Of a stretch of DNA of 64,000 nucleotides, positions 4,411 to 21,094 are shown piece by piece (the first letter of the stretch is position 1; each line of letters starts with the position of its first letter). The notes under the pieces are model-generated. The model saw only the letters and a list, made by a program, of their open reading frames with translations, did not search any database and was not told the DNA's origin. This stretch comes from Flavihumibacter petaseus NBRC 106054 (GTDB lineage Bacteria; Bacteroidota; Bacteroidia; Chitinophagales; Chitinophagaceae), in the NCBI RefSeq assembly GCF_000974785.1, contig NZ_BBWV01000005.1, positions 1-64,000 on the forward strand, given 5' to 3'. Both the position numbers and the translations under genes were made by a program.

Positions 4411-5383
4411 TCTTCCTTGATCTTTCTTCCAGCTTCTTCTCGTCAATATTTCCGTCTTTGTCAAGCAAAGCATCTTCAGCAGGTGCATTCCCGAGGTAGG
4501 GATCCACATTCTTGAACTGATCAGGCACATCAACAAAAACTTTCTTGATCTGTACCCACTTCCCGTCCTTCCATTCAAATCCTTCAAAATCTCCATCAGG
4601 AACATAAGTCTCCGCGCGATTGGGTTCGTCTGTTTCAGAGATCAGGTGATCAAAGATCACCATGTCTTTTTCCGAACTGTAATTGAACGTAGTACTTGCT
4701 TCCTTCTTATACTCGATATGGAAACGATTCACAGTAGTTTTCTTTTTTGCTGAATCCGGTTGTATTACGAAGAATGGTCCGCCAAAAACCGGTTCACCGG
4801 TATTGTCATCGAACGACAAAACTTCCATCCATTTGCGGTTACTGGATACGGTAAACCCATCAAATCCCAGGAGGGTATAAAAGGTTTTACCTTGCCAGGT
4901 TTTTGCAATGATCTTGTAGTAAAGTGCACCGATCCAGTTCTGGCGGTTCCGTACGGAATCATCCGGTTTCCTGGTGAACATGGAAACATCAAACAGGGGA
5001 TACAACCGCAATGTGCCATTTTTGGTACGCATCTGGATGGCTCCCTTCTGAAAATACATGTATTCGTCTTTCTTCAGCTGCCAGGTAAAGATCCGGAAGC
5101 TGCTATCAGGCGCATACAACTGCGATACGGTAGTCAGTGAATCGAAAGGGAACTGAAATGACCAGGGAACTTTTAAGGCACGCACAAATCCTTTTACAAA
5201 ATTGCTGTCTGCCAGGAACCTGGTCCCGGCACGTTCTGCATTGACCATGCTGTCAGCAAACACTTTCAGGGAATCTTCCCGTTTTTCAAGATCCTTCCAG
5301 TCAGCAGCTTTGATGTTGCGCTGGGCAGAAAGGTATAAGGCAGGCAATAAAGCGATCAGGAGGAATAGGGATTTTATTTTCAT
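4352..5383 (-). CDS. Secreted protein of unknown function
   Basis: About 343 residues from ATG 5383, with a clear Sec signal peptide (basic start 'MKIKS', hydrophobic 'LFLLIALLPALY', cleavage near 'LSAQ'). The mature part is beta-rich with many aromatic residues: 'FRIFTWQLKKDEYMYFQKGAI' around residue 100, a 'LYYKI..KTWQGKTFYTLLGFDG' stretch, and a basic Lys/Pro-rich tail (KPKPKPKKP). I do not recognise a characterised family, although similar proteins are common in Chitinophagaceae. A longer start at 5410 would overlap the upstream stop as ATGA, but the signal peptide supports 5383. It sits between the gmhB-like gene and the flippase, so a cell-envelope role is possible; no function is assigned. 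Confidence 0.75.
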   Translation of the reverse strand: MKIKSLFLLIALLPALYLSAQRNIKAADWKDLEKREDSLKVFADSMVNAERAGTRFLADSNFVKGFVRALKVPWSFQFPFDSLTTVSQLYAPDSSFRIFTWQLKKDEYMYFQKGAIQMRTKNGTLRLYPLFDVSMFTRKPDDSVRNRQNWIGALYYKIIAKTWQGKTFYTLLGFDGFTVSSNRKWMEVLSFDDNTGEPVFGGPFFVIQPDSAKKKTTVNRFHIEYKKEASTTFNYSSEKDMVIFDHLISETDEPNRAETYVPDGDFEGFEWKDGKWVQIKKVFVDVPDQFKNVDPYLGNAPAEDALLDKDGNIDEKKLEERSRKNEEKGKEKPKPKPKKPVSN

Positions 5384-5406
5384 ATCAGGATATGAAGGTA
5401 CCAAAT

Positions 5407-5964
5407 TCATACCGCAGGAATTGCCTGCGCAAAATTTAACAGGTCATTGAAAGCCAGATCAATAGCCGGGTGGGGAAGGGGTTGATCGGGCGAAGTGGTC
5501 AGCAGAAAAACGGTATGCATACCGGCATTTCTCCCGAACAACATGTCACTGAGATTATTACCCACCATTACCGATTTCTCAAACCAGATCTGAGGAAAGG
5601 CTGCTTTGGCCTTATATGCCATCCCGGGCTGTGGCTTACGGTCGGGATGTTCGTCATCAAGAGAACTGTTAAAATAGATCTCATCTATCACCACGCCCCG
5701 GGAGGAGAACAGTTCCAGCATGTGATCGTGGATATCGTGAAGATCCTTTTCTGTCATTAGTCCCTTTGCGATGCCCCGCTGATTGGTAACCATCACGATC
5801 CGCCCGAACCGGGTTTTTAAGATCTCGAGTGCATCCAGCACACCGTCATACAACACAAACTCTCCGGGATGATAGATATAATCAGCTTCCTTTTCAATAT
5901 TGATCACACCATCGCGGTCCAGGAACAGGGTCCAGTCCCTGCGGATTTCAGCAAGATTCAGCAT
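5407..5964 (-). CDS. gmhB: HAD-IIIA phosphatase, D,D-heptose 1,7-bisphosphate phosphatase-like
   Basis: A 185-residue HAD-superfamily phosphatase with motif I 'FLDRDGVIN' near residue 13, motif II 'VTNQRGIAKG' near 58, the Lys-containing 'RKPQPGM' near 112 and motif IV 'VGNNLSDM' near 134. GmhB removes the 7-phosphate (C7 of the heptose) during nucleotide-heptose synthesis. Its position two bases downstream of gmhA supports that role. Differences from classical GmhB: no Cys cluster before RKPxPGM, so no zinc loop, and the first Asp of the usual VGD is Asn. Another sugar or histidinol phosphate is therefore possible. Confidence 0.8.
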   Translation of the reverse strand: MLNLAEIRRDWTLFLDRDGVINIEKEADYIYHPGEFVLYDGVLDALEILKTRFGRIVMVTNQRGIAKGLMTEKDLHDIHDHMLELFSSRGVVIDEIYFNSSLDDEHPDRKPQPGMAYKAKAAFPQIWFEKSVMVGNNLSDMLFGRNAGMHTVFLLTTSPDQPLPHPAIDLAFNDLLNFAQAIPAV

Positions 5965-5966
5965 AA

Positions 5967-6548
5967 CTACTTAGTGGGAAAATATGCGGCCTCAACAAGT
6001 TGACAAACGATATGTCCGACAAGAATATGACTCTCCTGGATCCGGGGAGTATCCTTCGATGGAATATTGATCAGGTAGTCACAAAGCGGACGCATTTTGC
6101 CACCGGTTTCCCCGGTAAGCCCAACAGTATGCACCCCCTTCGACCGGGCCATTTCAAATGCTGCAAGGATATTGGGAGAGTTGCCGGATGTGGAGAATCC
6201 CAGCAGCACATCGCCTTTACCCATAATGCCTTCCACCAGACGCGCATAGGCAACATCGTAACCGAAATCATTGGCAACTGCTGTCAGGTAAGAGGTATTG
6301 CAATGCAGGGCTTCGGCTGGAAGCGCCACCCGGTTCAGGTAGAAACGCCCGCTAAGTTCCGCCGCCAGGTGCTGTGCATCCGCAGCGCTGCCGCCATTGC
6401 CACAGAACCATGCCCTTTTGCCATCTTTAAATGCCGCTGTCATGAGATCAGCCACATCATTGATGGTGTTTAATATCGTTTCATCTTTCAGCAATTGCTG
6501 CTTCGTGTCAATCGATGCCCGGATCAATGCACTGATGGTTTCCTGCAT
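5967..6548 (-). CDS. gmhA: Sedoheptulose 7-phosphate isomerase (GmhA, SIS domain)
   Basis: A 193-residue SIS-domain protein. The motifs are 'FCGNGGSAADAQHLAAELSG' around residues 48-67, 'NDFGYD' near 93, 'GFSTSGNSPNI' near 116 and 'RIQESHILVGHIVC' near the end, all diagnostic of phosphoheptose isomerase. GmhA converts sedoheptulose 7-phosphate to D-glycero-D-manno-heptose 7-phosphate in the cytosol, the first step toward ADP- or GDP-heptose. The next step, a heptose kinase/nucleotidyltransferase (HldE or HddA/HddC), is not in this window. It lies between a GT4 gene (15 bp upstream) and the gmhB-like gene (2 bp downstream). Confidence 0.93.
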   Translation of the reverse strand: MQETISALIRASIDTKQQLLKDETILNTINDVADLMTAAFKDGKRAWFCGNGGSAADAQHLAAELSGRFYLNRVALPAEALHCNTSYLTAVANDFGYDVAYARLVEGIMGKGDVLLGFSTSGNSPNILAAFEMARSKGVHTVGLTGETGGKMRPLCDYLINIPSKDTPRIQESHILVGHIVCQLVEAAYFPTK

Positions 6549-6563
6549 ATGCTTGTTTTTACG

Positions 6564-7682
6564 TTAACGGTTAAACCTGAGCAGGGATTCGCAAAATACC
6601 TGCCAGCTGAATCTCTTCTTTTCAGTACGAATCTGCGATATAAAATGTGATTCACCAAGTGTAAAAAACCGGGTGATAGCATCGGCAATCGCAGCAGGTT
6701 CCGCAGCTGTAACCAGCCCGGTTTCCCCATCTTTTACATAATCAGGAAGGCCTCCAACCCGGGTGACGATCATCGGCTTTTCAAAATGATAGGCCAGGGG
6801 TGTCACGCCGCTTTGTGTGGCATTTCGGTAGGGTTGTACCACCACGTCCGCAGCACTGAAATAATACTTAACGGCATCATTGGGTATAAAATTTTGATGC
6901 AACAGTAATTTTCCGGAACTGATCAGTGGGTCCATCAAGGGCCGGTACAGGGCTTCATCCTCGTAAAACTCGCCTGCTACCACCAGTTTCAGCCAGGGAT
7001 CTTCGAGCAGGGTCATGGCTTCCAGCAAGAGGTCCAGTCCCTTGTACTGCCTGATAAACCCGAAAAAAAGCATCACCTTATCTTCCGGCGCCAAACCCAG
7101 TCGCTGCCTGGCTTCTTCCCTGCCGGCTGCGGCCCCGAAATTGTCGTACAGGGGATGCTCTACCTGCAGCACGGGTTGCGGTAGTCCGAAGGCCAGCAGG
7201 TCTTCCCTGACTTTGCTACTCATACACACAAACCGGTCACAGCTCTTCAGGAAATAGCGAGTGAATATTTTGTCGCCCGGCCTTTTCTCATGCGGACGGA
7301 TATTATCTGTTATCGCAGTGATTTTGGTATGCCTGTTGCCCCTTGCGATCCGCAGCACAGTGCCAAATGCAGGCCCCATAAGGGGCAGCCAGAAGCGTAC
7401 AATGATCAGGTCAGGACGGCTGCGGCGCAGGTACAGGCCGGTACGGAACCAGCTGATGGGATTCATGGAATGCAACCGCCGTTCGATCAGTATATCCGTG
7501 GGCGCAGGCTCATCGGTCAGCTGACTTTTGCCGGGAAAAAGAAAACCGGGATACTGTACAGTAAAATTGACAATGGTCACTTCATGCCCGGCCTCCTGTA
7601 AAGCCCTGGCCATACGTTCATTGAAAGTGGTAATTCCGCCGCCACGGAACGGATGCGCCGGTCCGAGGATCACGATCCTCAT
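6564..7682 (-). CDS. Glycosyltransferase family 4
   Basis: A 372-residue GT-B enzyme. The N-terminal acceptor domain starts 'MRIVILGPAHPFRGGGIT'. The C-terminal donor domain has 'LFFGFIRQYKGLDLLLEAM' near residue 205 and the GT4 motif region 'VVVQPYRNATQSGV.PLAYHFEKPMIVTRVGGLPD' near 285-320. It probably adds a sugar to a lipid-linked glycan on the cytoplasmic face. It overlaps the GT2 gene by 4 bp, so translation is probably coupled. The specific sugar cannot be inferred. Confidence 0.88.
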   Translation of the reverse strand: MRIVILGPAHPFRGGGITTFNERMARALQEAGHEVTIVNFTVQYPGFLFPGKSQLTDEPAPTDILIERRLHSMNPISWFRTGLYLRRSRPDLIIVRFWLPLMGPAFGTVLRIARGNRHTKITAITDNIRPHEKRPGDKIFTRYFLKSCDRFVCMSSKVREDLLAFGLPQPVLQVEHPLYDNFGAAAGREEARQRLGLAPEDKVMLFFGFIRQYKGLDLLLEAMTLLEDPWLKLVVAGEFYEDEALYRPLMDPLISSGKLLLHQNFIPNDAVKYYFSAADVVVQPYRNATQSGVTPLAYHFEKPMIVTRVGGLPDYVKDGETGLVTAAEPAAIADAITRFFTLGESHFISQIRTEKKRFSWQVFCESLLRFNR

Positions 7683-8623
7683 CCTAATCCGGTTTTTTCT
7701 TCAATCAGATAAAGGTTCCGTCCCGGTGCATTCCGGGAGATCAGTTCTCCCAGGAACCCCGCAAGGAACAACTGGGAACCAATAATCATCACCGTTAGCC
7801 CGATATAAAAAGCAGGCCGGTTACTGAGACTCACTTCAGGATCAACGATCTTTCCGATGATCAGGTAGGTAATCGAAATAAAGCCGATCAGAAAACATAA
7901 CGTTCCCCATAAACCGAAAAAGTGCATGGGTTTCTTGCCGTATTTTCCGACAAAAGTAATGGAAGCAAGGTCAAGGAAACCATTGACAAACCGGCTCAGG
8001 CCGAATTTTGTTACGCCGTATTTCCGGGCACGATGTTCTACCACTTTTTCTCCGATCTTTCTGAAACCGGCCCATTTGGCAATCACAGGTATGTAACGGT
8101 GCATCTCACCGTACACTTCAATACTCTTCACGGTTTTCTGCCGGTAGGCTTTCAGGCCGCAATTAAAATCATGGAGGTAGATCCCCGACACACTGCGGGT
8201 TGCTGCATTAAATAATTTGGAAGGAAGATTTTTGGTCAGGGTATTGTCATACCGCTTTTTTTTCCAGCCGCTCACCAGGTCATAACCATCATTGAGGATC
8301 ATCGAGCGAAGCCCGGGAATTTCATCGGGAGAGTCCTGCAGGTCTGCATCCATCGTGATCACAACGTCTCCCTGAGCAGCCCGGAATCCCTCATTCAATG
8401 CGCCGGATTTTCCATAATTACGCTGAAATTTGATCCCCTTGATCAGCGGATTCTCGCGATGCAGGGTCTTAATCACTTCCCAGCTTTCGTCCGTACTGCC
8501 ATCATCCACGAGGATCACCTCATAACTGTAGCCGTTTTCGTCCATCACGCGGCAGATCCAGGCACATAACTCCGGCAAAGACTCAGCCTCATTCAGTAAG
8601 GGTATGACGATGGAAAGATCCAT
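7679..8623 (-). CDS. Glycosyltransferase family 2, dolichol/polyprenyl-phosphate mannosyltransferase-like
   Basis: About 314 residues from ATG 8623; the frame upstream of it is a shadow of DUF4199. The N-terminal GT-A domain has 'MDLSIVIPLLNEAESL', 'LVDDGSTD', 'QRNYGKSGALNEGF' and the metal-binding 'MDADLQD'. Two hydrophobic C-terminal segments follow, as in the DPM1/GtrB-like family that makes polyprenyl-phosphate sugars for periplasmic glycosylation. The operon context (flippase, GT4, heptose genes) agrees with envelope glycan synthesis. It starts one base after the DUF4199 stop and overlaps the GT4 start by 4 bp. Confidence 0.9.
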   Translation of the reverse strand: MDLSIVIPLLNEAESLPELCAWICRVMDENGYSYEVILVDDGSTDESWEVIKTLHRENPLIKGIKFQRNYGKSGALNEGFRAAQGDVVITMDADLQDSPDEIPGLRSMILNDGYDLVSGWKKKRYDNTLTKNLPSKLFNAATRSVSGIYLHDFNCGLKAYRQKTVKSIEVYGEMHRYIPVIAKWAGFRKIGEKVVEHRARKYGVTKFGLSRFVNGFLDLASITFVGKYGKKPMHFFGLWGTLCFLIGFISITYLIIGKIVDPEVSLSNRPAFYIGLTVMIIGSQLFLAGFLGELISRNAPGRNLYLIEEKTGLG

Positions 8624-8624
8624 G

Positions 8625-9149
8625 TTATCGTTTTGGATGGACGGTTTGTTTGGTAATAGTAGCAATAAACAGGGACTTGATGAAATCGAGCACCAGGTTC
8701 GTTCCGAATCCCAGCAACACTTTGCGGATGGTAAGCGGTCCTTTTTCCGAACCGGCCAACTTCCTGATTTCGTCCAGCTTTTCCTTCGGAACCTGCTGCC
8801 CGGCCATTTTTGCTTCGGTCTGCGCAAGCAGGTGCCGGATCAGCTGATCATTCGCCGTCCTGTCGTACAGCCCGAACAATCCGTAGGTACACATCGCATA
8901 TAACACTTCGTACACCACATAGGCCAGAAATGCATACTGTAACAGCTCTTTCAGATCGGGCACAGGCACAAGATTGCGCCGCAGCCACCAGGCTACCGCA
9001 CCGACCGGCACTATGATTAGAGGGAACCACGTATAGATATTTAAAAAGGATGCCATTACGGGTATCCCTGCCTGGTAGGTGGCAAAAAGCACGATGCCAT
9101 ACAATAATCCCAGGGAGACCCCGGTGATCAGCGCAACACGTCGGATCAT
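8625..9149 (-). CDS. DUF4199 membrane protein
   Basis: A 174-residue integral membrane protein with about four hydrophobic helices. Its order of segments fits DUF4199, a Bacteroidota-specific family often found beside a DPM-like glycosyltransferase and a dihydroorotase-like gene: 'MIRRVALITGVSLGLLYGI', a central 'YTWFPLIIVPVGAVAWW', a 'YVVYEVLY' segment, and a charged loop before the last helix. The function is unknown. It overlaps the dihydroorotase-like gene by 4 bp and is followed immediately by the GT2 gene. Confidence 0.85.
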   Translation of the reverse strand: MIRRVALITGVSLGLLYGIVLFATYQAGIPVMASFLNIYTWFPLIIVPVGAVAWWLRRNLVPVPDLKELLQYAFLAYVVYEVLYAMCTYGLFGLYDRTANDQLIRHLLAQTEAKMAGQQVPKEKLDEIRKLAGSEKGPLTIRKVLLGFGTNLVLDFIKSLFIATITKQTVHPKR

Positions 9150-10417
9150 GAGAGTTTATTAAACCGGTAATGCTTTCCGGAGATCGTTCCGGCAATACGC
9201 CCCTTCAGTGGTTTACCGAAAAATGCCGAATTATCGGATTTGGAACGGATATGTTCTTTGCTGAAAACAAAACTGTTTTCGGGAAGATGAAGTGTAATGG
9301 CTGCAGGCTGACCCGCTTCCACGCGGGCGTCCGGCAGGTTGAAGATCTTCCTGGCATTGAGTGAGAACAGTTCCCCCAGTCTCGTTTCCGAAATGCCCGG
9401 TATCGCTGCTTTTACCGCGCCATAAGCAGATTCCAGCCCGATCATGCCATACTTTGCATACTCGAACTCCACAATCTTGGCATCAAAGTCATGCGGAAAA
9501 TGATGCGTGGCGATCGTATCCACTACACCATTCAGTACGGCTTCGCGGAGGGCGTCCCTGTCTTTCACGGTGCGCAGGGGAGGATTCACCTTCAGCTGCG
9601 TATCGTAATCCATCAGGTCTTCATCACTGAAGAAAAGATGATAGGGCGTAACCGAACAGGTAACAGCAAGGCCCGATGCTTTTGCCCTGGAAATATAATC
9701 GATTGACTTCGGTGACGTCACGCCTGTAAAATGGATCCGGCTTTGCGTATAGCGTGCCAGTTTGATGTCACGTGCTACCAGGAGTTCCTCCGCCATCATG
9801 GGCTTTCCCGGCAGTCCCAGCCGGGTGGAAATTACGCCTTCATTCATCAGCCCGTTCGCGGAAAGACTCGTATCATCAGGTACCTGGATCAGCACACCGT
9901 TGATTGCTTTCAGGTATTGCAGCGCCTTCACGAGAATGCCGGACGACTGGATAGGGTAAAGACCATCACTGAACGCAGCCGCACCATTGGTACTCATGTC
10001 ATACATTTCCGCCAGTTCTTTTCCTTCAGCACGCCGGGTCACTGCGCCAATCGGTAACACGCGGGTGGGAAGCCGGTCATTTTTCGCCATGATGTATTCG
10101 ACGGCTGACTTGGTATCAATGACCGGTTGGGTATTGGGAAGTACGAGCACAGTGGTAAATCCTCCCGCTGCTGCTGCTTCCGCACCGGATTCAATCGTTT
10201 CCTTGTACTCCGTACCGGGATCATTGAAATGGGCAAAGGTGTCCACCCAGCCCGGTGAAGCGACACATCCCTGTTCTTTGAAGACCACGGCATCTTCGGT
10301 ACCGATGTTGTCTTCAATGGACATGATAATGCCATCTTTAACCAGGATGTCTTTAATGGAACCAAAATAAGTAGAGCGGGGATCGTTGATGAGGACTGAT
10401 TGTAGTACTACTTTCAT
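9146..10417 (-). CDS. Dihydroorotase-like amidohydrolase with degenerate active site
   Basis: A 423-residue protein from ATG 10417 (the frame extends to 10444) with the fold signature of class I dihydroorotases: 'GWVDTFAHFNDPGTEYKE' near residue 57, 'GGFTTVLVLPNTQP' near 85-98 and 'NARKIFNL' near the end. Dihydroorotase closes carbamoyl-aspartate in pyrimidine synthesis. Here metal ligands are altered: the HxH pair reads F61-A-H63, the 'HxxHVS' His is Gly (HFTGVTS), and the Asp of the TDHAPH motif is His (THHFPH, residues 304-309). It may be a non-catalytic paralogue or partner of aspartate carbamoyltransferase, and many genomes annotate it as PyrC. It is first in the glycosyltransferase operon. 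Confidence 0.8.
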   Translation of the reverse strand: MKVVLQSVLINDPRSTYFGSIKDILVKDGIIMSIEDNIGTEDAVVFKEQGCVASPGWVDTFAHFNDPGTEYKETIESGAEAAAAGGFTTVLVLPNTQPVIDTKSAVEYIMAKNDRLPTRVLPIGAVTRRAEGKELAEMYDMSTNGAAAFSDGLYPIQSSGILVKALQYLKAINGVLIQVPDDTSLSANGLMNEGVISTRLGLPGKPMMAEELLVARDIKLARYTQSRIHFTGVTSPKSIDYISRAKASGLAVTCSVTPYHLFFSDEDLMDYDTQLKVNPPLRTVKDRDALREAVLNGVVDTIATHHFPHDFDAKIVEFEYAKYGMIGLESAYGAVKAAIPGISETRLGELFSLNARKIFNLPDARVEAGQPAAITLHLPENSFVFSKEHIRSKSDNSAFFGKPLKGRIAGTISGKHYRFNKLS

Positions 10418-10456
10418 CGGTGTAACGTTCCGCGAAATTAGCATTGTTATTTGATT

Positions 10457-10486
10457 TTTGTGTAATCAAATTTTACCGTAGCTTTG
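10457..10486 (+). promoter_or_regulatory. Promoter of tRNA-Pro (Bacteroidetes type)
   Basis: TTTG at 10457-10460 and TAGCTTTG at 10479-10486 are 18 bp apart and match the -33/-7 consensus well. The tRNA body begins 21 bp downstream. Confidence 0.65.
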
Positions 10487-10507
10487 CCACCCCGCAAGGG
10501 AAAAAGA

Positions 10508-10584
10508 CGGGACGTAGCGCAGCCCGGTAGCGCGTTTGCATGGGGTGCAAGAGGTCGCTGGTTCGAATCCAGTCGTCCCGACCA
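10508..10584 (+). tRNA. tRNA-Pro (anticodon GGG), CCA encoded
   Basis: The 77-nt sequence folds as a cloverleaf. A 7-bp acceptor stem (cgggacg / cgtcccg) is followed by a D-arm with a GCGC/GCGC stem. The anticodon stem ttTGC/GCAag carries the loop ATGGGGT, which gives anticodon GGG, and the T-arm is ctgg-TTCGAAT-ccag. The 3' end carries an encoded CCA. The starting C of the acceptor and the loop sequence are typical of proline tRNAs. It reads CCC and CCU codons. Confidence 0.97.
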
Positions 10585-10586
10585 GA

Positions 10587-10630
10587 AGAAAGCCCTGGAA
10601 CACTGACCAACAAGTGTTTCAGGGCTTTCT
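10587..10630 (+). terminator. Hairpin terminator after tRNA-Pro
   Basis: An 18-bp stem (10587-10604 with 10613-10630, one G-U pair) and an 8-nt loop directly follow the CCA. There is a U-rich right arm but no long U-run afterwards. It would end tRNA transcription. Confidence 0.7.
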
Positions 10631-10633
10631 TCA

Positions 10634-10987
10634 TTGTTTCATGTCCAAAGCTCAGCAGCCATTCTACCAGGAATTGTATCCTCGGTGAACCATGTGAATA
10701 AAGTATACTTCATTATTATTCAGTCAGGCGATTTCTGGCTGGCTTATTCCGGGCTGTCTGCACCCCGGGTGACACGCGGAGATTCCATTGCAATAAATAC
10801 AGAATTAGGATTAATGGCATTGGCCAGTGACACAAGAAAGATGTATTCACTGGAATTGCGACTCGCCCGGAAGGATATTTTATATGTAAACATTAACAGG
10901 TGGTTTAACTGGCAAACAGAGTCAGCAAAAATTTCACATCCGGAAAAGTCAGCTAAAATGCCAGATAAGTTATTTGGCGGGAAATAA
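10634..10987 (+). CDS. Small protein resembling a degenerate M23/LytM (lysostaphin-like) domain
   Basis: A 117-residue frame from TTG 10634; GTG codons near residues 17 and 21 are other start options. The middle reads like the second half of an EnvC/LytM-type M23 domain: '[18 protein letters not shown]', then '[11 protein letters not shown]', then 'YSLELRLAR' and a closing 'NRWFNW'. In active M23 enzymes the segment equivalent to 'YSLELRL' carries a zinc-binding His, which is absent, and the N-terminal Hx3D half is missing. It is therefore probably a non-catalytic remnant or a domesticated regulatory domain. It lies between the tRNA terminator and the encapsulin operon. The family call is a pattern match by eye. 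Confidence 0.45.
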
Positions 10988-11116
10988 ATTTGTGCAGAAC
11001 CCCGCTAATCTCTAATTTAACGAAGAATACCTCTCTTGCTTTCCTTTCTGCTGTATTTGCTTAAGATACGCCCAATCTGTATCCCTTCATGTTTTTAACG
11101 CTCAAAACATATCTCT

Positions 11117-12043
11117 ATGGCAGAACAGATCAGTAATTACCAGCAGACAGCACTGGGTGACGTAGCAGCACGCCAATTAGCCATCGCTACCCGTACTGTT
11201 CCCCAGATGGTCACCATCAGCCCCAGGTGGCTCACCCGCCTCCTCAGCTGGGTAGGCGTCGAATCCGGGGTCTATCGCCTCAACAAAGTAAAAGATGCCG
11301 GAGCCATCGTTGTCGACTGCTCTGCACGGGATGAAAGGATCCTTCCCCAGACATTTGTCGACTACATTGAAAACCCCAGGGAGTACAACCTCGCAGCGGT
11401 GCAGACCATCGTCGATGTACACACCAGGGTCTCCGATCTCTACAGCAAACCGTACAACCAGATCAGCGAACAATTACGCCTGGCTATTGAAACCATCAAA
11501 GAACGTCAGGAAAGCGAACTGATTAACAACAAGGAATACGGACTGCTGCACAGCATCGCCCCATCACAACGCATCAAAACCCGTTCAGGTGCACCCACTC
11601 CCGATGATCTCGACGCGCTGATCGCGCTGGTCTGGAAAGAACCGGGCTTCTTCCTGCTGCATCCGCAGGCAATCGCAGCCTTTGGCCGTGAATGTACCCG
11701 GAGAGGCGTGCCGCCACCTACCGTAACCTTGTTCGGGTCACCTTTCCTCACCTGGCGGGGCATTCCATTGATCCCTTCGAATAAACTCCCGATGGAAAAT
11801 GGTAAATCAAAGATTATCCTTCTCCGCACTGGTGAAAGCCGCCAGGGCGTCGTCGGACTTTTCCAGCCCGGACTCCAGGGTGAGCAGTCCCCCGGGTTAT
11901 CGGTTCGGTTTATGGGAATCAACGATAAAGCCATCGCTTCCTATCTGGTTTCCCTGTATTGTTCACTGGCAGTTCTGGTAGATGACGCCATTGCTGTACT
12001 TGATGATGTAGAAACCGGCAATTACCATGAATACAAATATTAA
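11117..12043 (+). CDS. Family 2A encapsulin nanocompartment shell protein
   Basis: A 308-residue protein that I recognise as an SrpI-like family 2A encapsulin (HK97 capsid fold). Diagnostic stretches are the N-terminal arm 'MAEQISNYQQTALGDVAARQLA', 'VYRLNKVKDAGAIVVDC' near residue 53, the helix with 'EFGLLHS'-like 'EYGLLHSIAPSQRI' near 140, and the hallmark 'LTWRGIPLIPSNKLP' at 211-225. No cyclic-nucleotide-binding insertion is present, which separates it from family 2B. Such shells self-assemble into about 24-25 nm T=1 cages. The next gene, overlapping by 17 bp, is its cysteine desulfurase cargo. A 129-bp leader precedes the ATG; its promoter is not clear. Confidence 0.93.
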   Translation: MAEQISNYQQTALGDVAARQLAIATRTVPQMVTISPRWLTRLLSWVGVESGVYRLNKVKDAGAIVVDCSARDERILPQTFVDYIENPREYNLAAVQTIVDVHTRVSDLYSKPYNQISEQLRLAIETIKERQESELINNKEYGLLHSIAPSQRIKTRSGAPTPDDLDALIALVWKEPGFFLLHPQAIAAFGRECTRRGVPPPTVTLFGSPFLTWRGIPLIPSNKLPMENGKSKIILLRTGESRQGVVGLFQPGLQGEQSPGLSVRFMGINDKAIASYLVSLYCSLAVLVDDAIAVLDDVETGNYHEYKY

Positions 12044-13697
12044 CCGAAACGGACTGCCGGACGAATCGGAACTGCAGCAACTGGCCAACCAGTTATTCCG
12101 GGAACAGGGGCAACAGGGGCAACAAGTGCAACAAGGGCAGTATGGTAACCATCACCGGACGCCTCCTTCTGTGGCAGGCAGCGGCCAATCACCTTCAGGC
12201 ATCCAGCACGGCAACAACATCAATATAGATGATCCGCAAACCGGCTTTCCCGACAAAAACCTCCGCGATCCAACCAGCAACAGCATTCCTGGGGACACTC
12301 TTTTCGCACCTTCGCTCCGGTTTAAAGAATACCTGCCAGCTGAAAGCGATCCCAATACCTGGCTGAACCTTCGCGGAATGCTTTCGCTTTTCCCGGCTGA
12401 TATTATCACCCAGATCCCCGGTCTTGCCGGCGGCGAAACGCCATCGTACTATTTCATGAACAAACAGGGCAGCCTTCCGGGTTCATGGGGCTTCGATGCC
12501 GGTATCATAAAAAAAGATTTTCCGATCCTCTCCGAACGGGTCAACGGGAAACAGCTGGTCTGGTTGGATAACGCTGCCACCACCCAGAAACCCAAACAGG
12601 TGATCGACCGGATCAGTCATTTCTACGAGCATGAGAACTCCAATGTTCACCGCGCAGCGCACGAACTGGCCGCCCGGTCCACTGATGCCTATGAAGGCGC
12701 CCGGAAAAAAGTACAGGCATTCATCAATGCGGCTTCTCCCAATGAGATCGTCTTCGTTCGCGGCACAACCGAAGCGATCAACCTGGTGGCGAAAAGCTGG
12801 GGCGAACAATTCCTGCAAAGCGGCGATGAGATCGTTGTCACCCACCTGGAACACCACGCCAATATCGTTCCCTGGCAGCAGCTGGCAGCGAAAAAGAATC
12901 TCAAACTGCGCGTAGCACCTGTAGATGACAGCGGCCAGGTGCTGCTGGACGAATACGCTAAACTGCTGAACAGTAAAACGAAGCTGGTTGCCTTTACCCA
13001 GGTCTCCAATGCCCTCGGTACGATCACACCCGCACCGGCAATCATTGAAATGGCCCATAGGGCAGGGGCTAAAGTATTGCTCGATGGCGCCCAATCGGTT
13101 TCACATATGCGAACCGATGTGCAGTCCCTGAACGCAGACTGGTTCGTGTTTTCCGGCCATAAAATCTTTGGTCCCACCGGTATCGGTGTTTTATATGGTA
13201 AAGAAGAACTGCTCAACCAGGCCGAGCCCTGGCAGGGTGGGGGCAACATGATCAAAGATGTCACCTTCGAACATACGGAATACCATAAGGCGCCTTTGCG
13301 GTATGAAGCAGGCACGGGTAATATTGCCGACGCGGTGGGACTCGGTGTTGCACTTGACTATGTCAGCCACCTCGGTATCGAAAACATCGCCCTGTACGAG
13401 CACTACCTGTTGGAATATGCAACAAGCCTGCTGAAACAGGTACCGGGACTCCGCCTGATTGGCACCGCCCCGGAAAAGGCAAGCGTAATGTCGTTTACCC
13501 TTCAGGGTTATACCAATGACGATGTGGGCAAGGCACTGAACAAAGAAGGCATCGCAGTAAGAACGGGGCACCATTGCGCGCAACCTATCCTGCGGCGGTT
13601 TGGTGTGGAAAGCACCGTCCGGCCATCCCTGGCATTTTACAATACCTGCGCAGATGTCGAGCTGCTCGCAAATACCCTGCAAAAGTTGAAGGCCTGA
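12027..13697 (+). CDS. Family 2A encapsulin cargo: SufS-like cysteine desulfurase with disordered N-terminal extension
   Basis: A 556-residue protein, about 150 longer than SufS. Residues ~160-556 are a complete type II cysteine desulfurase: 'WLDNAATTQKP' near 179, 'THLEHHANI' near 272, the PLP lysine K379 in SGHK, and the catalytic cysteine C517 in 'GHHCAQP'. It would release sulfur from cysteine, giving alanine and a persulfide. Residues 1-160 are low-complexity and Gln/Gly/Pro/Asn-rich, with two short conserved-looking segments, 'PDESELQQLANQLF' (11-24) and 'YYFMNKQGSLPG' (141-152). In known family 2A systems this region docks the enzyme inside the shell. Start ATG 12027 overlaps the shell gene by 17 bp, suggesting translational coupling. 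Confidence 0.95.
   Translation: MNTNINRNGLPDESELQQLANQLFREQGQQGQQVQQGQYGNHHRTPPSVAGSGQSPSGIQHGNNINIDDPQTGFPDKNLRDPTSNSIPGDTLFAPSLRFKEYLPAESDPNTWLNLRGMLSLFPADIITQIPGLAGGETPSYYFMNKQGSLPGSWGFDAGIIKKDFPILSERVNGKQLVWLDNAATTQKPKQVIDRISHFYEHENSNVHRAAHELAARSTDAYEGARKKVQAFINAASPNEIVFVRGTTEAINLVAKSWGEQFLQSGDEIVVTHLEHHANIVPWQQLAAKKNLKLRVAPVDDSGQVLLDEYAKLLNSKTKLVAFTQVSNALGTITPAPAIIEMAHRAGAKVLLDGAQSVSHMRTDVQSLNADWFVFSGHKIFGPTGIGVLYGKEELLNQAEPWQGGGNMIKDVTFEHTEYHKAPLRYEAGTGNIADAVGLGVALDYVSHLGIENIALYEHYLLEYATSLLKQVPGLRLIGTAPEKASVMSFTLQGYTNDDVGKALNKEGIAVRTGHHCAQPILRRFGVESTVRPSLAFYNTCADVELLANTLQKLKA
12105..12140 (+). repeat. Four imperfect 9-bp tandem repeats inside the cargo gene
   Basis: Copies of the unit cagGGGcaa (variants caaGTGcaa, caaGGGcag) encode the Gln-Gly-Gln track at residues 27-38 of the cargo's disordered arm. 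In-frame length variation would be tolerated. Confidence 0.8.
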
Positions 13698-15731
<2,034 letters not shown>

Positions 15732-15761
15732 GAATCCGATTTGACACTATATCCTTCAGGC

Positions 15762-16232
15762 TTATAAATTGAGACGCCAGATCCAGAAATTAAGCACCAT
15801 CGCAAAAGTCACCCACACGAGATAAGGCCACTGGATATTTGCAGCCCAGTGATCAACCCGGTAAAACTGCCGGATCATCACCATAATCAACAACCATAAC
15901 AGGATAATATCAATTAAAGCCAGGCCGGTTAAATGAAACCTGAAAAATATCAGGCTCCACCAGAAATTAAAGAAAAGCTGTAAACAGAAAATGAACACCG
16001 CCATTCTTCTGCCATCGGAAGGTGGCTTCAAAAGTATCCTGTAAAACGAAATGCCCATCAGCAAATACAGGATCGTCCAGACCGGGCCAAACAAGGCATT
16101 CGGAGGCGTAAACCAGGGCTTATTCAATGCCGGGTACCATTCCTCAACATTCCGGGCCGTCACTAACCCCCCAATGCCCCCCACGCTCAGCGGAAGCAGG
16201 AGGGCCAGCACCAGTTTCTGCCATTTACTCAT
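15762..16232 (-). CDS. tspO: TspO/MBR family tryptophan-rich sensory protein
   Basis: A 156-residue protein with five hydrophobic helices and TspO markers: 'GGLVTARNVEEWYPALNKPWFTPPN' in the first loop (W-Y..L.KP...PP), 'FGPVWTILYLLMG', and 'FNFWWSLIFF' in helix 3. TspO binds porphyrins and tetrapyrroles in the outer or inner membrane and is linked to stress and heme catabolism. It is convergent with the esterase and has only the small unknown gene upstream, so it is probably monocistronic. Confidence 0.93.
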   Translation of the reverse strand: MSKWQKLVLALLLPLSVGGIGGLVTARNVEEWYPALNKPWFTPPNALFGPVWTILYLLMGISFYRILLKPPSDGRRMAVFIFCLQLFFNFWWSLIFFRFHLTGLALIDIILLWLLIMVMIRQFYRVDHWAANIQWPYLVWVTFAMVLNFWIWRLNL

Positions 16233-16259
16233 ATTGGCGCTTAAGCAATACTTATACCA

Positions 16260-16640
16260 TCAGTCAGCCAGCCGCTCATTATACAATTTGTTGAACCGTT
16301 CTTTGCTGGTGACTTCAATTTTTACAATTTCAAAGTCTTTGTTCTGATGAACCTTAACGCCCGTAATCGCTTCATATGCTTCAACAGCGCGGTCTTCAAT
16401 CTGAATTTTACCCCTCCCATATACATGCCTGTTACTTCCATTTTTCTTTATTCCCGTGATCCAGTAAATTTCTCCGGTCTCCATATCATGGCTGCCTCCA
16501 TGGCCATTACCATAGAATGCATGATCATTGAAATAGACTGTTTTGCCCGATTTGGAATACTCAACATAGCCAATCCACGCCGGACCGTCATCATTATAGC
16601 CTGATTTGAGTTCGATGTACTTTAATTTCTGTTTCATCAT
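16260..16640 (-). CDS. Conserved hypothetical protein
   Basis: A 126-residue soluble protein without signal peptide; tandem ATG at 16640 and 16637. It has 'AWIGYVEYSKSGKTVYFNDHAFYGNGHGGSHD' with a Gly/His-rich centre (residues 20-50), 'GEIYWITGIKKNGSNRH', and a charged C-terminal helix 'SKERFNKLYNERL'. I recall similar proteins as uncharacterised conserved bacterial ORFs but cannot name a function. It lies 28 bp upstream of tspO on the same strand and could be co-transcribed. Confidence 0.7.
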   Translation of the reverse strand: MMKQKLKYIELKSGYNDDGPAWIGYVEYSKSGKTVYFNDHAFYGNGHGGSHDMETGEIYWITGIKKNGSNRHVYGRGKIQIEDRAVEAYEAITGVKVHQNKDFEIVKIEVTSKERFNKLYNERLAD

Positions 16641-16722
16641 CTAAAATAACTTTTGCCGCTTATAATATTATATCAACCGGAAAATGAATCTTTCATAGAT
16701 TTCAAACCAGCAAATAAAAACG

Positions 16723-17223
16723 ATGAAAACCTTACCAATTGTCCTGAATATCATTTTGCTCTTCGTGTTGACGACTATCTGCTCCTCCACAACAGCGCAG
16801 GTCCCCCGCGATTCGGAATTATTCCTGACCATGCAGCGGCACGACAGCATCTTCTTTGAACGTGCCTTCAATTTGTGCGATACCGCATATGTAAACAGGG
16901 CGACTGATAAAGACCTTGTATTCTATCATGACCGGAACGGCATCAGTTACAAAAAACAATTCCTGGAAAACACCGCAAAATACCTCTGCAGCGACTGGAA
17001 CAACAAACCCATCCGTAAAGTAAAAAAGGAATCCCTTGAAGTATACCCCCTGTACAACCAGGACAAGCTCTACGGTGTTGTCCAGTCGGGCATTCACGAT
17101 TTCTACCGCCGCACGCCCGGCAAACCGGACCAACTGATGGGCTCAGCAAAATTCACCCATGTTTACCTGCTCGTCGGGTCCGACTGGATCCTCAAAGAAG
17201 TGCTTAGTTTCGATCACAAATAG
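16723..17223 (+). CDS. Secreted NTF2-like/SnoaL-type protein
   Basis: A 166-residue protein with a signal peptide ending near 'SSTTAQ'. The mature part, about 140 residues, has an NTF2-like pattern: an N-terminal helix with 'FFERAFNLCD', 'DLVFYHDRNGI..KKQFLEN', and a closing strand pair 'KFTHVYLLVGSDWILKEVLS'. This is typical of DUF4440/SnoaL-like proteins of Bacteroidota. The fold often serves as a small-molecule-binding or enzyme scaffold, and no activity can be assigned. Its stop overlaps the convergent SGNH hydrolase gene by 20 bp. Confidence 0.8.
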   Translation: MKTLPIVLNIILLFVLTTICSSTTAQVPRDSELFLTMQRHDSIFFERAFNLCDTAYVNRATDKDLVFYHDRNGISYKKQFLENTAKYLCSDWNNKPIRKVKKESLEVYPLYNQDKLYGVVQSGIHDFYRRTPGKPDQLMGSAKFTHVYLLVGSDWILKEVLSFDHK

Positions 17224-17821
17224 AGCTGACCCATTCCGTCGCCGCCAGCAACCCTGACCAGCGCCGGTAGTCTTTTGCCGAAGGATGCAATCCATCCCCC
17301 GCCAGCAGAGATGCATCACGCGCGGCCTCACGGGTCAGCGGCGTGATGTCTGTATATCCGCACCCCATCGTTTCCGTAATACCCCGGTTAATCGCATTAA
17401 AAGTATCGATCTCCGCAGCGATCTTCCTACGGTCACGCCCCTCCGCAAACGGTGTTACACCCCAGTCCGGAACCGATAAAACCATGACGGCTGCAGCATT
17501 CTCACCGGCAAGAACAATAGCCCGGGTCAGCAGTTCTTCAAAACCCTCCGCATACAGGTCAACCGGGTAACCGCGGTATTGATTATTCACCCCGATCAGC
17601 AGGCTGACCCTATCGTACCGGGGCAATAGTGTATACCCATCCATGGCAGTTTTCAGCTCACCGGTCGTCCAGCCCGTCCGCGCAATGATCTCCGGTGCTG
17701 CCATCGAAACGCCCTTCTTCCGCAGCAACTGCACCAGCTGGTAAGCATAAGTTTCTTCCAAAGAAACCTGTTCGCCGATCGTATAGGAATCGCCCAAGGC
17801 GAGGTAGGTAAGTAAAGACAT
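17204..17821 (-). CDS. SGNH/GDSL-family hydrolase
   Basis: A 205-residue cytosolic-looking protein. Block I 'YLALGDSYTIGEQ' has the catalytic Ser in GDSY at residues 10-13. 'ARTGWTTGEL' is the Gly block, 'LLIGVNNQYRG' the Asn block, and 'DGLHPSAKDY' the C-terminal Asp/His pair. It would be an esterase or lipase acting on small acyl esters. No signal peptide. It lies 56 bp downstream of the Fe-S membrane protein on the same strand. Confidence 0.92.
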   Translation of the reverse strand: MSLLTYLALGDSYTIGEQVSLEETYAYQLVQLLRKKGVSMAAPEIIARTGWTTGELKTAMDGYTLLPRYDRVSLLIGVNNQYRGYPVDLYAEGFEELLTRAIVLAGENAAAVMVLSVPDWGVTPFAEGRDRRKIAAEIDTFNAINRGITETMGCGYTDITPLTREAARDASLLAGDGLHPSAKDYRRWSGLLAATEWVSSICDRN

Positions 17822-17877
17822 CTCAGATTATAGATTAAACCCTATCAGGTTAAAGGCAGCCATGGAAACGAGTCATA

Positions 17878-19149
17878 TCAGGAATTGGTCCAGGCATCCC
17901 GGTCATCAGGACTGAATTTCCAGGGTGCGAAGTTGTTCTCTACGTTTCCGAACAGTACATTCCATTCCTGCGGTGCATTGCTTTCTTCCATTACCAGTGA
18001 ACGCCGCAGTTCCAGAATAATCTCCAGTGGACTGATACTGACCGGACAAGCCTGCACACAGGCATTGCAGGCCGTACACGCCCGCAATTCTTCTACCGAT
18101 ATATACTGGTGCACGAGCGTCTTACCATCAGGCTCAAAACTACCGTTCATGTCAATTGCCCGGCCTACTTCCTCCAGGCGGTCCCGCGTATCCATCATGA
18201 TCTTGCGCGGCGACAACTTCTTGCCGGTGATATTCGCCGGACAGGCAGCGGTACACCTTCCACATTCCGTACAGCTATACGCATCCAGCAGGTTGCGCCA
18301 GGACAGATCCGTCACATCCTTTGCACCAAAGGAAGCCGCCTCTGCCGGACCTGAAGGTGCCGTCTCCGGTTGCATCGCATACAGCACTTCCTGCTGTATG
18401 GTTTTCATATTATGCATCTTACCCATTGGCTCAAGCCGCGTATAATAAGCATTGGGAAAAGCCAGCAGAATGTGCAGGTGCTTGGAAAATGGCAGGTAAT
18501 TGAGAAATGCAAAAATGCCAATGATATGCAGCCACCAGCAGGTGCGCTCCAGCATATGCAAAGCCCCGGGAGACCAGCCGGCAAACAAAGGACTTATCCG
18601 GGAAGACAAAACAAAATCGGTCGAAGGATCCGCTGCATTCATGGTGAGAAAAAGCACCATCAAAATGATTTCCGTAATGAGGATATAATTTGCATCGGAG
18701 CGTGGCCAGCCATCCAGATCGCGACTGATAAACCGCTTCAGTTTGATCACATTCCGGCGCAAAAGGAAGATCACACAAACCGTCAGCACACCCAGGGCCA
18801 GCCATTCAAAAGAATTGATCAAAACAGGGTACAGGGCACCCAATGGCGCGCGAAACAAACGGTGCGTGCCGAAGATACCATCCAGCACGATTTCCAGCAC
18901 TTCAATATTAATAATGATAAAGCCCAGGTAGATCACCAGGTGCATCAGGGCCACCAGCGGATTGGCAAACATTTTTTTCTGCCCGAAAGCCAGCAGGAAA
19001 AGATTTTTCCAGCGCCGGTCGGGATGATCGCTGTAATCAGCATCTTTTCCGAGCAGAATATTGCGCCGTATCGCGCGGATTCTCCGGGAAAACAAAATGA
19101 TCGCAGCAGTAGCCAGCAGTACAAAAGCAATTTGCTGAACAAGATGCAT
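17878..19149 (-). CDS. Membrane-bound 4Fe-4S protein (HdrC/GlpC/NarI-like electron-transfer subunit)
   Basis: A 423-residue protein. The N-terminal half has about five or six transmembrane helices with His residues compatible with heme binding. The C-terminal domain carries two 4Fe-4S motifs, 'CTECGRCTAACP' (near residue 293) and 'CTACNACVQACP' (near 352), and a trailing helix. Proteins of this type pass electrons between the quinone pool and a soluble CCG-domain partner (heterodisulfide-reductase/GlpC-like). The partner gene usually follows directly, but here an SGNH hydrolase comes next. Reduction partner and substrate are unknown. Confidence 0.85.
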   Translation of the reverse strand: MHLVQQIAFVLLATAAIILFSRRIRAIRRNILLGKDADYSDHPDRRWKNLFLLAFGQKKMFANPLVALMHLVIYLGFIIINIEVLEIVLDGIFGTHRLFRAPLGALYPVLINSFEWLALGVLTVCVIFLLRRNVIKLKRFISRDLDGWPRSDANYILITEIILMVLFLTMNAADPSTDFVLSSRISPLFAGWSPGALHMLERTCWWLHIIGIFAFLNYLPFSKHLHILLAFPNAYYTRLEPMGKMHNMKTIQQEVLYAMQPETAPSGPAEAASFGAKDVTDLSWRNLLDAYSCTECGRCTAACPANITGKKLSPRKIMMDTRDRLEEVGRAIDMNGSFEPDGKTLVHQYISVEELRACTACNACVQACPVSISPLEIILELRRSLVMEESNAPQEWNVLFGNVENNFAPWKFSPDDRDAWTNS

Positions 19150-19225
19150 AGGCAGGCATTGTGCGACTAAATTAAGCGTTTTCAGTTTGGCTCAATGTTT
19201 TGTTGTAATTTTTCGGCCTTATTTG

Positions 19226-19735
19226 ATGCCGATGACGACAGAAAGAAAATATATACTGGATGCACCGACAGCAGCAGTGAAGATGGAAAGAATGGCCTAT
19301 GAAATAGCGGAGCAGCTGGTAGGAGAGGATGCGCCCGTGATCCTGGCCGGTATCCGGGACAACGGCGTAGTCATGGCAAAAATCCTGCAGGAGCTGCTCA
19401 GGAAGATTGCATCTCTTTCCACGTCCATCATCGAGATCAGCCTCGATAAACGCAATCCCGGCCTCATAACCATTGACCAGGAAATCTCCATAGATAATAA
19501 AATCGTCATCCTTGTAGACGATGTAGTCAACAGCGGCAAGACGCTCCTGTATGCTTTAAAACCCTTCCTGGAGCAACATCCCCGCCGCATTCAGATCCTG
19601 ACCCTCATCGAGCGCACCCACAAGGCTTTCCCCCTCAAAGCCGACTACGTAGGCATCAGCATCGCGACCACCCTCCAGGAACATATTTACGTCGAAGTAG
19701 AAAACCACATCATCTCCGGCGCTTACCTCGAATAG
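19226..19735 (+). CDS. Phosphoribosyltransferase family protein (PyrR/hypoxanthine-PRT-like)
   Basis: A 169-residue protein from ATG 19226 (the frame goes up to 19187; ATG 19232 is also possible). It has the type I PRTase signature 'VILVDDVVNSGKT' (PRPP loop) near residue 95, an early 'GIRDNGVVMA' loop, and 'ERTHKAFPLKADYVGIS' as hood. The layout matches PyrR-like PRTases, which salvage uracil or sense UMP, but no RNA-attenuator structure is seen nearby. Guanine or hypoxanthine salvage is the alternative. Confidence 0.85.
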   Translation: MPMTTERKYILDAPTAAVKMERMAYEIAEQLVGEDAPVILAGIRDNGVVMAKILQELLRKIASLSTSIIEISLDKRNPGLITIDQEISIDNKIVILVDDVVNSGKTLLYALKPFLEQHPRRIQILTLIERTHKAFPLKADYVGISIATTLQEHIYVEVENHIISGAYLE

Positions 19736-19779
19736 GCTGTTATCCCGCTAAGGCGCTGCGCGCCTATCACGCTATCTGT

Positions 19780-20027
19780 TTTTTTCACGCCAGGCACGCC
19801 AAGGTGTAAAGGCGCAAAGAAGAAAAAAATTATATAGGAGTAGATGATGGAGGGGAGTAATTAATAGTCGGGGCCTTAATACTGCCAACAAGGAGATTTT
19901 TGCCATCAATACCACGCCTGCCACATTCGGTACCCACACTAAGTGGTTGCCTGAACGCTGATTACTTCCAGCAACTGAATCAATCGATCCTTGCGCCTTT
20001 GCACCTGGCGTGCCTGGCGTGAAAAAA
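19780..20027. repeat. Long inverted repeat made of two opposing copies of a dispersed unit
   Basis: The left arm is 19780-19819 and the right arm 19989-20027. They match as reverse complements over about 39 bp with one indel and a few substitutions (core CACGCCAGGCACGCC and its complement). The ~170 bp between the arms has no convincing coding capacity. Related units occur at 63658-63677 and 63731-63770. A GC hairpin plus T7 run (19751-19785) precedes the left arm and could terminate the phosphoribosyltransferase gene. The whole 402-bp gap between genes is explained by this. Confidence 0.8.
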
Positions 20028-20137
20028 TACTCCTGCGTGAACGGGAGCGCCAGCGACCCCAAACCACACTGCCCAAAAACAAATATTATGAAACTCCTCG
20101 TGAAACAACAATTGCGTGAACAGCCAACATGCAAGCA

Positions 20138-21094
20138 CTACTGATGTATCCAATACCCGCGAATCCCATCCTTGCTGAACTGAACCGAAGGCGCCGGTAC
20201 CTTCACCGCATTCACCAAAAAGAAAACCGACTTCAGAAACTTACTTCGGGTGCGTATCTTCGTTAGATCGGCATCCACCGACAAATAAAAACGCCGCACC
20301 CGCGGAATATCCGTCCTGTCCACCACCACACCATCATCCGTCGTCCATTTATTCTCTTCTCCACCCAACATCAGGTCCGCACTATACCCCAGCGAGACAT
20401 TCAGCCAGCGGGGTATCCCCGAATCCGGGAAAAAACTCCGGAGATTGGCCGACAACCAGTAAGTCTGGCTATTATAATCCTTTAACACCCGCTCACTGCC
20501 ACCTTCTCCGAACAACTCATCCCTGCGCGCTACAAGATCTGAAGGATAGTCATAAGGCCAGTATCCCATCTTCACCTGAAGCCGCTGCTCTTTCCAACCC
20601 AATTCCTGCGCTAGAAAAATCCCCGCTCCGGAAACATTTGCCACCATATCCCACACACTGAAACCCCATTTGTCGGAAAATCCATCCTGGATCTCAATGA
20701 TACTCTGAAACGCCAGTGCGCTTCCCGCTCCGAACCAGGCCGCCTTCCGGTCGGAGAATCCCGCCCATTTCCAGGTGGCTGCTGAAGCCCGGCCCAGCTG
20801 GTAAGCCGTCCACACATGCCCTGCCTTGTCCATCTGCAGCCATTCGCTGCCATCATTAAACAAATGGAAATTACTCCGGGAATAATCCGCATACCACGCC
20901 TTGTTCAGGGCAATAAAAGTGCCTGTCCAGACGGCAGCATGGCCGCCAGCTACCACCCATTTCCGGTAAGCAGGAGGAGTAAGCGTATCACCACTGTGTA
21001 TATCCTGCGCGGCACAGCTAACGGCGATCATCAGGGCAAAACAAATGCCCGCAAAGGAGATGGTTTTCAATGGGGTAAAAATACATAACTTCAA
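20138..21094 (-). CDS. DUF2279 family secreted/periplasmic protein
   Basis: A 318-residue protein with a signal peptide (hydrophobic 'FAGICFALMIAVSCAAQ'; the Cys before AAQ might be a lipobox but fits poorly). It has the family pattern 'DGSEWLQMDKAGHVWTAYQLGR' near residue 85 and 'GFSDKWGFSVWDMVANVSGAG' near 140, both typical of DUF2279 (YfiM-like, predicted membrane-associated). The function is unknown. It is divergent from the phosphohexomutase gene with a 21-bp gap, so the promoters must overlap the coding starts. Confidence 0.85.
   Translation of the reverse strand: MKLCIFTPLKTISFAGICFALMIAVSCAAQDIHSGDTLTPPAYRKWVVAGGHAAVWTGTFIALNKAWYADYSRSNFHLFNDGSEWLQMDKAGHVWTAYQLGRASAATWKWAGFSDRKAAWFGAGSALAFQSIIEIQDGFSDKWGFSVWDMVANVSGAGIFLAQELGWKEQRLQVKMGYWPYDYPSDLVARRDELFGEGGSERVLKDYNSQTYWLSANLRSFFPDSGIPRWLNVSLGYSADLMLGGEENKWTTDDGVVVDRTDIPRVRRFYLSVDADLTKIRTRSKFLKSVFFLVNAVKVPAPSVQFSKDGIRGYWIHQ

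Follow-up and report, generated by a model that had tools for sequence, protein, structure and literature searches.

What is encoded by the two overlapping reading frames in a 64,000-nucleotide stretch of the genome of Flavihumibacter petaseus NBRC 106054 (contig NZ_BBWV01000005.1, positions 1 to 64,000; hereafter the window), and what would their products do together? The source genome, of 5.69 Mb, belongs to the Chitinophagaceae. A preliminary description made from the letters of the window had read the two genes as an SrpI-like shell and a SufS-like desulfurase cargo, that is a family 2A encapsulin system, and both readings are borne out by the curated models for this family. As a compartment the pair is of a known and ordinary type, since 111 Bacteroidetes 2A desulfurase operons had already been counted (Nat Commun 2021, PMC8346489). 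As a whole, the explanation that we consider very probable is a T=1 HK97 shell that loads one SufS-type desulfurase by means of its arm, keeps the sulfur of cysteine inside and was acquired horizontally.

The shell protein passes the 2A model NF041162 with 523.1 bits (cut-off 380), and it also passes the 2B model NF041163, but with a lower score (431.5 bits, cut-off 400); the SrpI-like family PF19307 (351.4 bits, cut-off 22.8) is the sole Pfam family found in its 308 residues. Family 2B encapsulins (PDB 9bje, 9bix, 9bhu) have a similar HK97 core, but reach at most 331.8 bits in phmmer comparisons, and the cNMP-binding domain fused to them was not found in the window shell by Pfam. As the 2A model outscores the 2B model and this domain is not found, the protein is classed on its sequence as a family 2A encapsulin. 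Its identity to SrpI of Synechococcus elongatus PCC 7942 (PDB 6x8m) is 73%, with 221 of 303 aligned residues identical, and from this identity to a solved shell the HK97 fold can be predicted with near certainty. The pore residues R192, G194, P196 and R304 and the cargo-site residues at the 3-fold, F262 and Y273, were described for SrpI (eLife 2021, PMC8049743). Their counterparts here are R195, G197, P199, K307, F265 and Y276, so that only R304 is changed, to lysine; R195, G197, P199, F265 and Y276 do not vary among 29 aligned Bacteroidota shells. Foldseek searches with the predicted model of the shell place family 2A shells on top (8t6r and 6x8m, E 5e-26), with TM-scores near 0.46, so that these matches lean on sequence. 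The first of them, the cargo-loaded 2A encapsulin of Acinetobacter baumannii (PDB 8t6r), whose host belongs to a different phylum, is the best structural and the second-best sequence match of the shell. A 2024 paper, the title of which tells of elemental sulfur sequestered and stored by an encapsulin, reportedly has Acinetobacter as its subject.

The second gene encodes a protein that passes both the curated model of the family 2A cargo desulfurase, NF041166 (868 bits, cut-off 800), and the SufS model TIGR01979 (557 bits, cut-off 475.1). It carries SGHK at residues 376-379 and GHHCAQP at 514-520, and in 23 aligned cargos K379 and C517 are invariant; as in SufS, these would be the PLP position and the catalytic position, respectively. 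With its catalytic residues kept and solved relatives matched, the protein is assigned to the family 2A cargo desulfurases.

For comparison we used 79 usable pairs, namely the window pair and the pairs of its nearest relatives (from the best 80 of 533 matches), which form an uneven sample of the Bacteroidota; within these best 80, the nearest shells, with 94% identity, are those of Paraflavitalea pollutisoli and Chitinophaga tropicalis. The two genes overlap as the preliminary description had it, and 17 nt is the commonest arrangement in the sample whichever way the start of the cargo is chosen. When the ATG nearest to the 17-nt spacing is taken, the overlap is 17 nt in 60 of the 79 pairs, 20 nt in 11, 14 nt in 5 and 13 nt in 1, and a gap is left in 2; with the frame's first start codon instead, it is 17 nt in 50 of 70 pairs. 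Two cargo starts could not be placed: that of Niabella hibiscisoli (L022), where the match falls into two pieces, and that of Foetidibacter luteolus (L048), where an ATG was not found near the shell stop.

Ahead of the DFPIL that starts the enzyme core, the cargo bears a 163-residue arm, the seventh shortest among the 79, which agrees with the disordered arm of about 160 residues described earlier. Two motifs were named in the arm of the SrpI system, LARLANEFFS and AASPYYFLDG (eLife 2021, PMC8049743), and the window arm has a counterpart of each (Table 1); a helix at residues 13-26 of the arm model, predicted with low confidence, spans the first. According to the same study, the S. elongatus arm is necessary and sufficient for loading, a 29-residue piece of the cargo CyD (residues 155-183) failed to load, and kcat is about sevenfold higher when the enzyme is encapsulated (eLife 2021, PMC8049743). 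For desulfurase systems, a further paper has a specific targeting peptide as not yet identified at that date (Nat Commun 2021, PMC8346489).

Table 1. Positions in the window of the encapsulin pair, the parts of its cargo arm and the bounding tRNA gene.
Feature	Position	Strand	Remarks
Family 2A encapsulin shell protein (SrpI-like)	11117..12043	+	308 aa, ATG start; assigned from NF041162 and SrpI identity
Family 2A cargo cysteine desulfurase (SufS-type)	12027..13697	+	556 aa, ATG start, N-terminal arm; assigned from NF041166
Overlap of shell and cargo reading frames, 17 nt	12027..12043	+	End of the shell frame and beginning of the cargo frame share these 17 nt
Predicted disordered cargo-loading arm, residues 1-163	12027..12515	+	pLDDT < 50 over residues 26-154
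Arm motif 1, LQQLANQLF, residues 16-24	12072..12098	+	Counterpart of published LARLANEFFS; A20, N21 and F24 invariant in 23 cargos
Arm motif 2, SYYF, residues 140-143	12444..12455	+	Counterpart of published AASPYYFLDG; YYF/FYF in 79/79 arms
Cassette, first half, SVAGSGQSPS, residues 48-57	12168..12197	+	GxGxSP form in 75/79 Bacteroidota arms
Cassette, second half, PQTGFPDKNL, residues 70-79	12234..12263	+	PQTxFPD form in 56/79 arms
tRNA-Pro (GGG) bounding the variable interval	10508..10584	+	ARAGORN

We propose that the two genes would give rise to a T=1 shell of HK97 fold, into which a single dedicated cysteine desulfurase of the SufS type would be loaded by means of its long, disordered N-terminal arm; the frame overlap may couple the synthesis of shell and cargo in translation. 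Cysteine would enter by the five-fold pores and be turned into alanine and sulfane sulfur, and the sulfur would stay in the shell, as a store or as a detoxified pool, instead of being handed to SUF Fe-S assembly. The closest model for such a working is SrpI/CyD of S. elongatus, with which the window pair shares a SufS-type cargo with a disordered arm and a shell gene directly before the cargo gene. It differs from this model by its frame overlap, where SrpI/CyD has a gap, by its shorter arm (228 residues in CyD, for the same kind of core boundary) and by lacking a linked epsC or rhodanese gene.

How, then, did the pair come to lie here? The tRNA-Pro(GGG) stands beside pyrC in the window, as it does in all 12 relatives with a pyrC locus that were scanned, and in the 11 of their loci in which the stretch after the tRNA was read the encapsulin pair is absent from it. 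What comes next in 7 of these 11 is an SGNH hydrolase, the counterpart of which lies at 17204 in the window, where the intervening 10585-17203 (about 6.6 kb) holds the pair together with genes for an esterase and a TspO protein, three further ORFs being unnamed. This interval measures 32 nt in one congener (G001) and contains different genes in others, and looks like a hotspot of gene turnover. Only 3 of the 15 Flavihumibacter genomes surveyed, the source genome included, have a family 2A shell; in the other two the pair and pyrC are on different contigs, and one downstream neighbour family is common to both. In the shell tree the window shell groups with Chitinophaga tropicalis and Paraflavitalea (support 100/92), and the tree test rejects a clade uniting all three Flavihumibacter shells (p-AU 0.006), as well as one of the window and F. 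profundi alone (p-AU 0.002). This discordance between the shell tree and the genus suggests horizontal acquisition, and the pair most likely reached the genome by this route, as a two-gene unit set into the variable interval beside tRNA-Pro. With this locus a widespread sulfur compartment gains a member in Flavihumibacter, placed where relatives lack the pair.

It is also conceivable, if improbable, that the cargo is the general SufS of the cell and that the compartment stores nothing and feeds the assembly of Fe-S clusters or thio-cofactors by way of an acceptor outside it, for instance a rhodanese. The cargo is indeed the only SufS-type enzyme above the cut-off in this genome, a rhodanese acceptor has been proposed (Nat Commun 2021, PMC8346489), S. 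elongatus has a rhodanese-like gene after cyd, and one congener carries a gene with a rhodanese domain (PF00581, 72 bits) upstream of its pair (L054:6871-7254). However, SufB was not found in the source genome at E <= 0.001, and a set of IscS (656 bits, cut-off 548), IscU (221 bits, cut-off 192) and IscA-type genes is present elsewhere in it, which together speak against a SUF role of the cargo. Nor did a Pfam scan of 18 neighbour ORFs (window 3487-21094, E <= 0.001) find a rhodanese family, the rest of the genome not having been searched for it. In this genome no SufS-type desulfurase other than the encapsulated enzyme passes the cut-off, and SufB is not found; strains of this type would offer a clean background in which to ask whether sulfur is stored in the compartment or passed on to Fe-S assembly.

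Several points weigh against the storage compartment that we propose. Assembly, loading and sulfur retention are carried over from relatives, this system being known from its genes. The AlphaFold model of the shell is of low confidence (mean pLDDT 47.1), and because it is poor the fold of the shell rests on homology. The tree group was chosen for testing after the tree had been inspected, and a fragment repeat of the tRNA-Pro gave only chance-level matches of 10-12 nt in the window. Lastly, the family 2A system is not generally accompanied by an absence of SUF. Among the 15 Flavihumibacter genomes the shell is present in 2 of the 3 without SufB against 1 of the 12 with it (Fisher p 0.08); across 294 Chitinophagaceae genomes, with SufB called at E <= 1e-60, SufB occurs in 19 of the 27 with a shell above the cut-off against 129 of the 267 others (p 0.04). 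Since the genus and family-wide counts are opposed and relatedness is uncorrected in them, a link between SUF loss and the encapsulin is not claimed in either direction.

The three Flavihumibacter genomes in which SufB is undetectable are the source genome (G000), G013 and G007; in the first two, nothing but the encapsulin cargo exceeds the cut-off for a SufS-type desulfurase, and in G007 nothing does. In the wider family, 3 of the 267 other genomes have shell matches below the 2A cut-off; the shell matches of G144, G271 and G308, all Chitinophagaceae, score 311-365 bits, and their frames of 476-531 aa come close in length to family 2B shells.

The surroundings of the pair bear on what else could belong to it. 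The preliminary description had stressed that no cysE, rhodanese or other companion is linked, and had seen in the pair a self-contained two-gene compartment. Neither a cysE-type nor a cysK-type gene occurs in the stretch examined, which reaches at most 8 kb to each side of a pair, and the two-gene unit is indeed self-contained; this state is nevertheless not distinctive and is common among relatives, as a cysE-type (serine acetyltransferase) gene lies near only 37 of the 79 pairs, a cysK-type (cysteine synthase) gene near 28 and at least one of the two near 43. A representative of either type also clears its curated model (EpsC 151.7 bits, cut-off 150; cysK 402 bits). The nearest shell relatives of the window (L009, L010 and L011) likewise have neither gene, and in the source genome a cysE/epsC adjoins cysK at an unlinked site. 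Compared with the other Bacteroidota 2A desulfurase systems, the window pair is thus of the same kind and phylum but has different neighbours, none of which is common to any of the 78 other pairs.

The same description had placed a degenerate M23-like small protein upstream and a double esterase downstream, and either could be thought of as a companion or a second cargo, being on the same strand and closely spaced (84 nt from the cargo stop to the esterase start); we hold this to be very unlikely. The double esterase is real, with PF00756 matched in two stretches, but it is not a neighbour in any of the 78 other pairs, and neither is the small ORF at 10634-10987. The latter does not qualify as M23-like, with 14.7 bits against PF01551 (cut-off 28.7, E 0.035), and it has weak matches (E 2.6e-5 and 5.7e-4) in only 2 of 58 other genomes. 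Both were rejected as companions. A search with the arm likewise points to a single cargo, as the one arm match of the source genome at E <= 5 sits in the desulfurase. Over 28 encapsulin genomes, an arm match beside the shell was found in 27 at E <= 5 and in 25 at E <= 1e-3, and a secondary cargo with the same arm was rejected, no arm match away from the shell being found at E <= 1e-3; the search does miss some arms, because in one genome (G165) no arm match was found beside the shell.

That the shell is a domesticated or prophage capsid gene lying by chance next to a housekeeping SufS can be dismissed: encapsulins and tailed-phage capsids do have the HK97 fold in common (eLife 2021, PMC8049743) and one PHROG family matches the shell, but this best phage match reaches 27.5 bits as against 351-523 bits with the encapsulin-specific models, gene-transfer-agent and phage capsids come far lower in Foldseek (E 0.12 and weaker), capsid, portal and terminase families are not among the 18 scanned neighbour ORFs, the enzyme bears a dedicated arm, and the reading frames of shell and cargo overlap in 77 of the 79 nearest pairs, so that family scores and conserved pairing rule out the phage origin which the preliminary description had named as its refutation.

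With regard to the insertion site, an integrative element at the tRNA was considered and rejected, the tRNA-Pro fragment repeat not being found and the integrase family not being among the scanned neighbour ORFs. An inverted repeat, spotted by eye and terminator-like, follows the tRNA-Pro directly at 10586-10640, and the small ORF, which has a low GC3, begins within the last part of this repeat and is possibly no real gene. Of the Bacteroidota-type promoter, only a lone TAAATTTG at 10985 was found, and its paired upstream element was not.

The arm of the cargo contains, between the two published motifs, a cassette of the form SVAGSGxSPS / PQTxFPDxNL that may be new and is perhaps a shell-binding element. 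Its letters were not found among the encapsulin-cargo papers listed by a literature search, which did not cover the 2024 Sci. Adv. sulfur-storage paper, and literature on an encapsulin in Chitinophaga was not found either. The cassette is absent from CyD, and the GxGxSP form occurs in none of six arms from Cyanobacteriota (S. elongatus) and Pseudomonadota (Methylosinus, Variovorax, Azospirillum, Paraburkholderia and Methylobacterium). After the removal of arms more than 70% alike, GxGxSP is kept in 34 of 37 and PQTxFPD in 30 of 37, both patterns having been written down only after the alignment was inspected; over all arms GxGxSP totals 138 occurrences, against a mean of 1.8 and a maximum of 7 in 200 shuffles. 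Both parts are present in 53 arms, and in 37 of them the second begins 19-25 residues downstream of the first; in the other 16 the spacing falls outside this range, with the order reversed in short Chitinophaga arms.

GxGxSP is present in 0-3 copies, one of them in the window arm, and longer arms tend to have more copies (Spearman 0.63, uncorrected for species relatedness). Copies lie mostly 40-50 residues apart, with a median of 44.5 for those spacings that exceed 30 residues; many other spacings are 19-25, mostly owing to an additional GAGFDP copy of looser form in the arms of Flavobacterium. A tentative idea, which we regard as possible but doubtful, is that the Bacteroidota cargo arm gained the cassette as a multivalent shell-binding element, the copy number of which would set the shell sites per desulfurase and hence the packing density, a lineage-specific cargo-loading code besides the two published motifs. 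If it does bind the shell, the cassette would offer a short portable loading tag. It is also seen in the cargo arms of L012, L014, L041 and L055.

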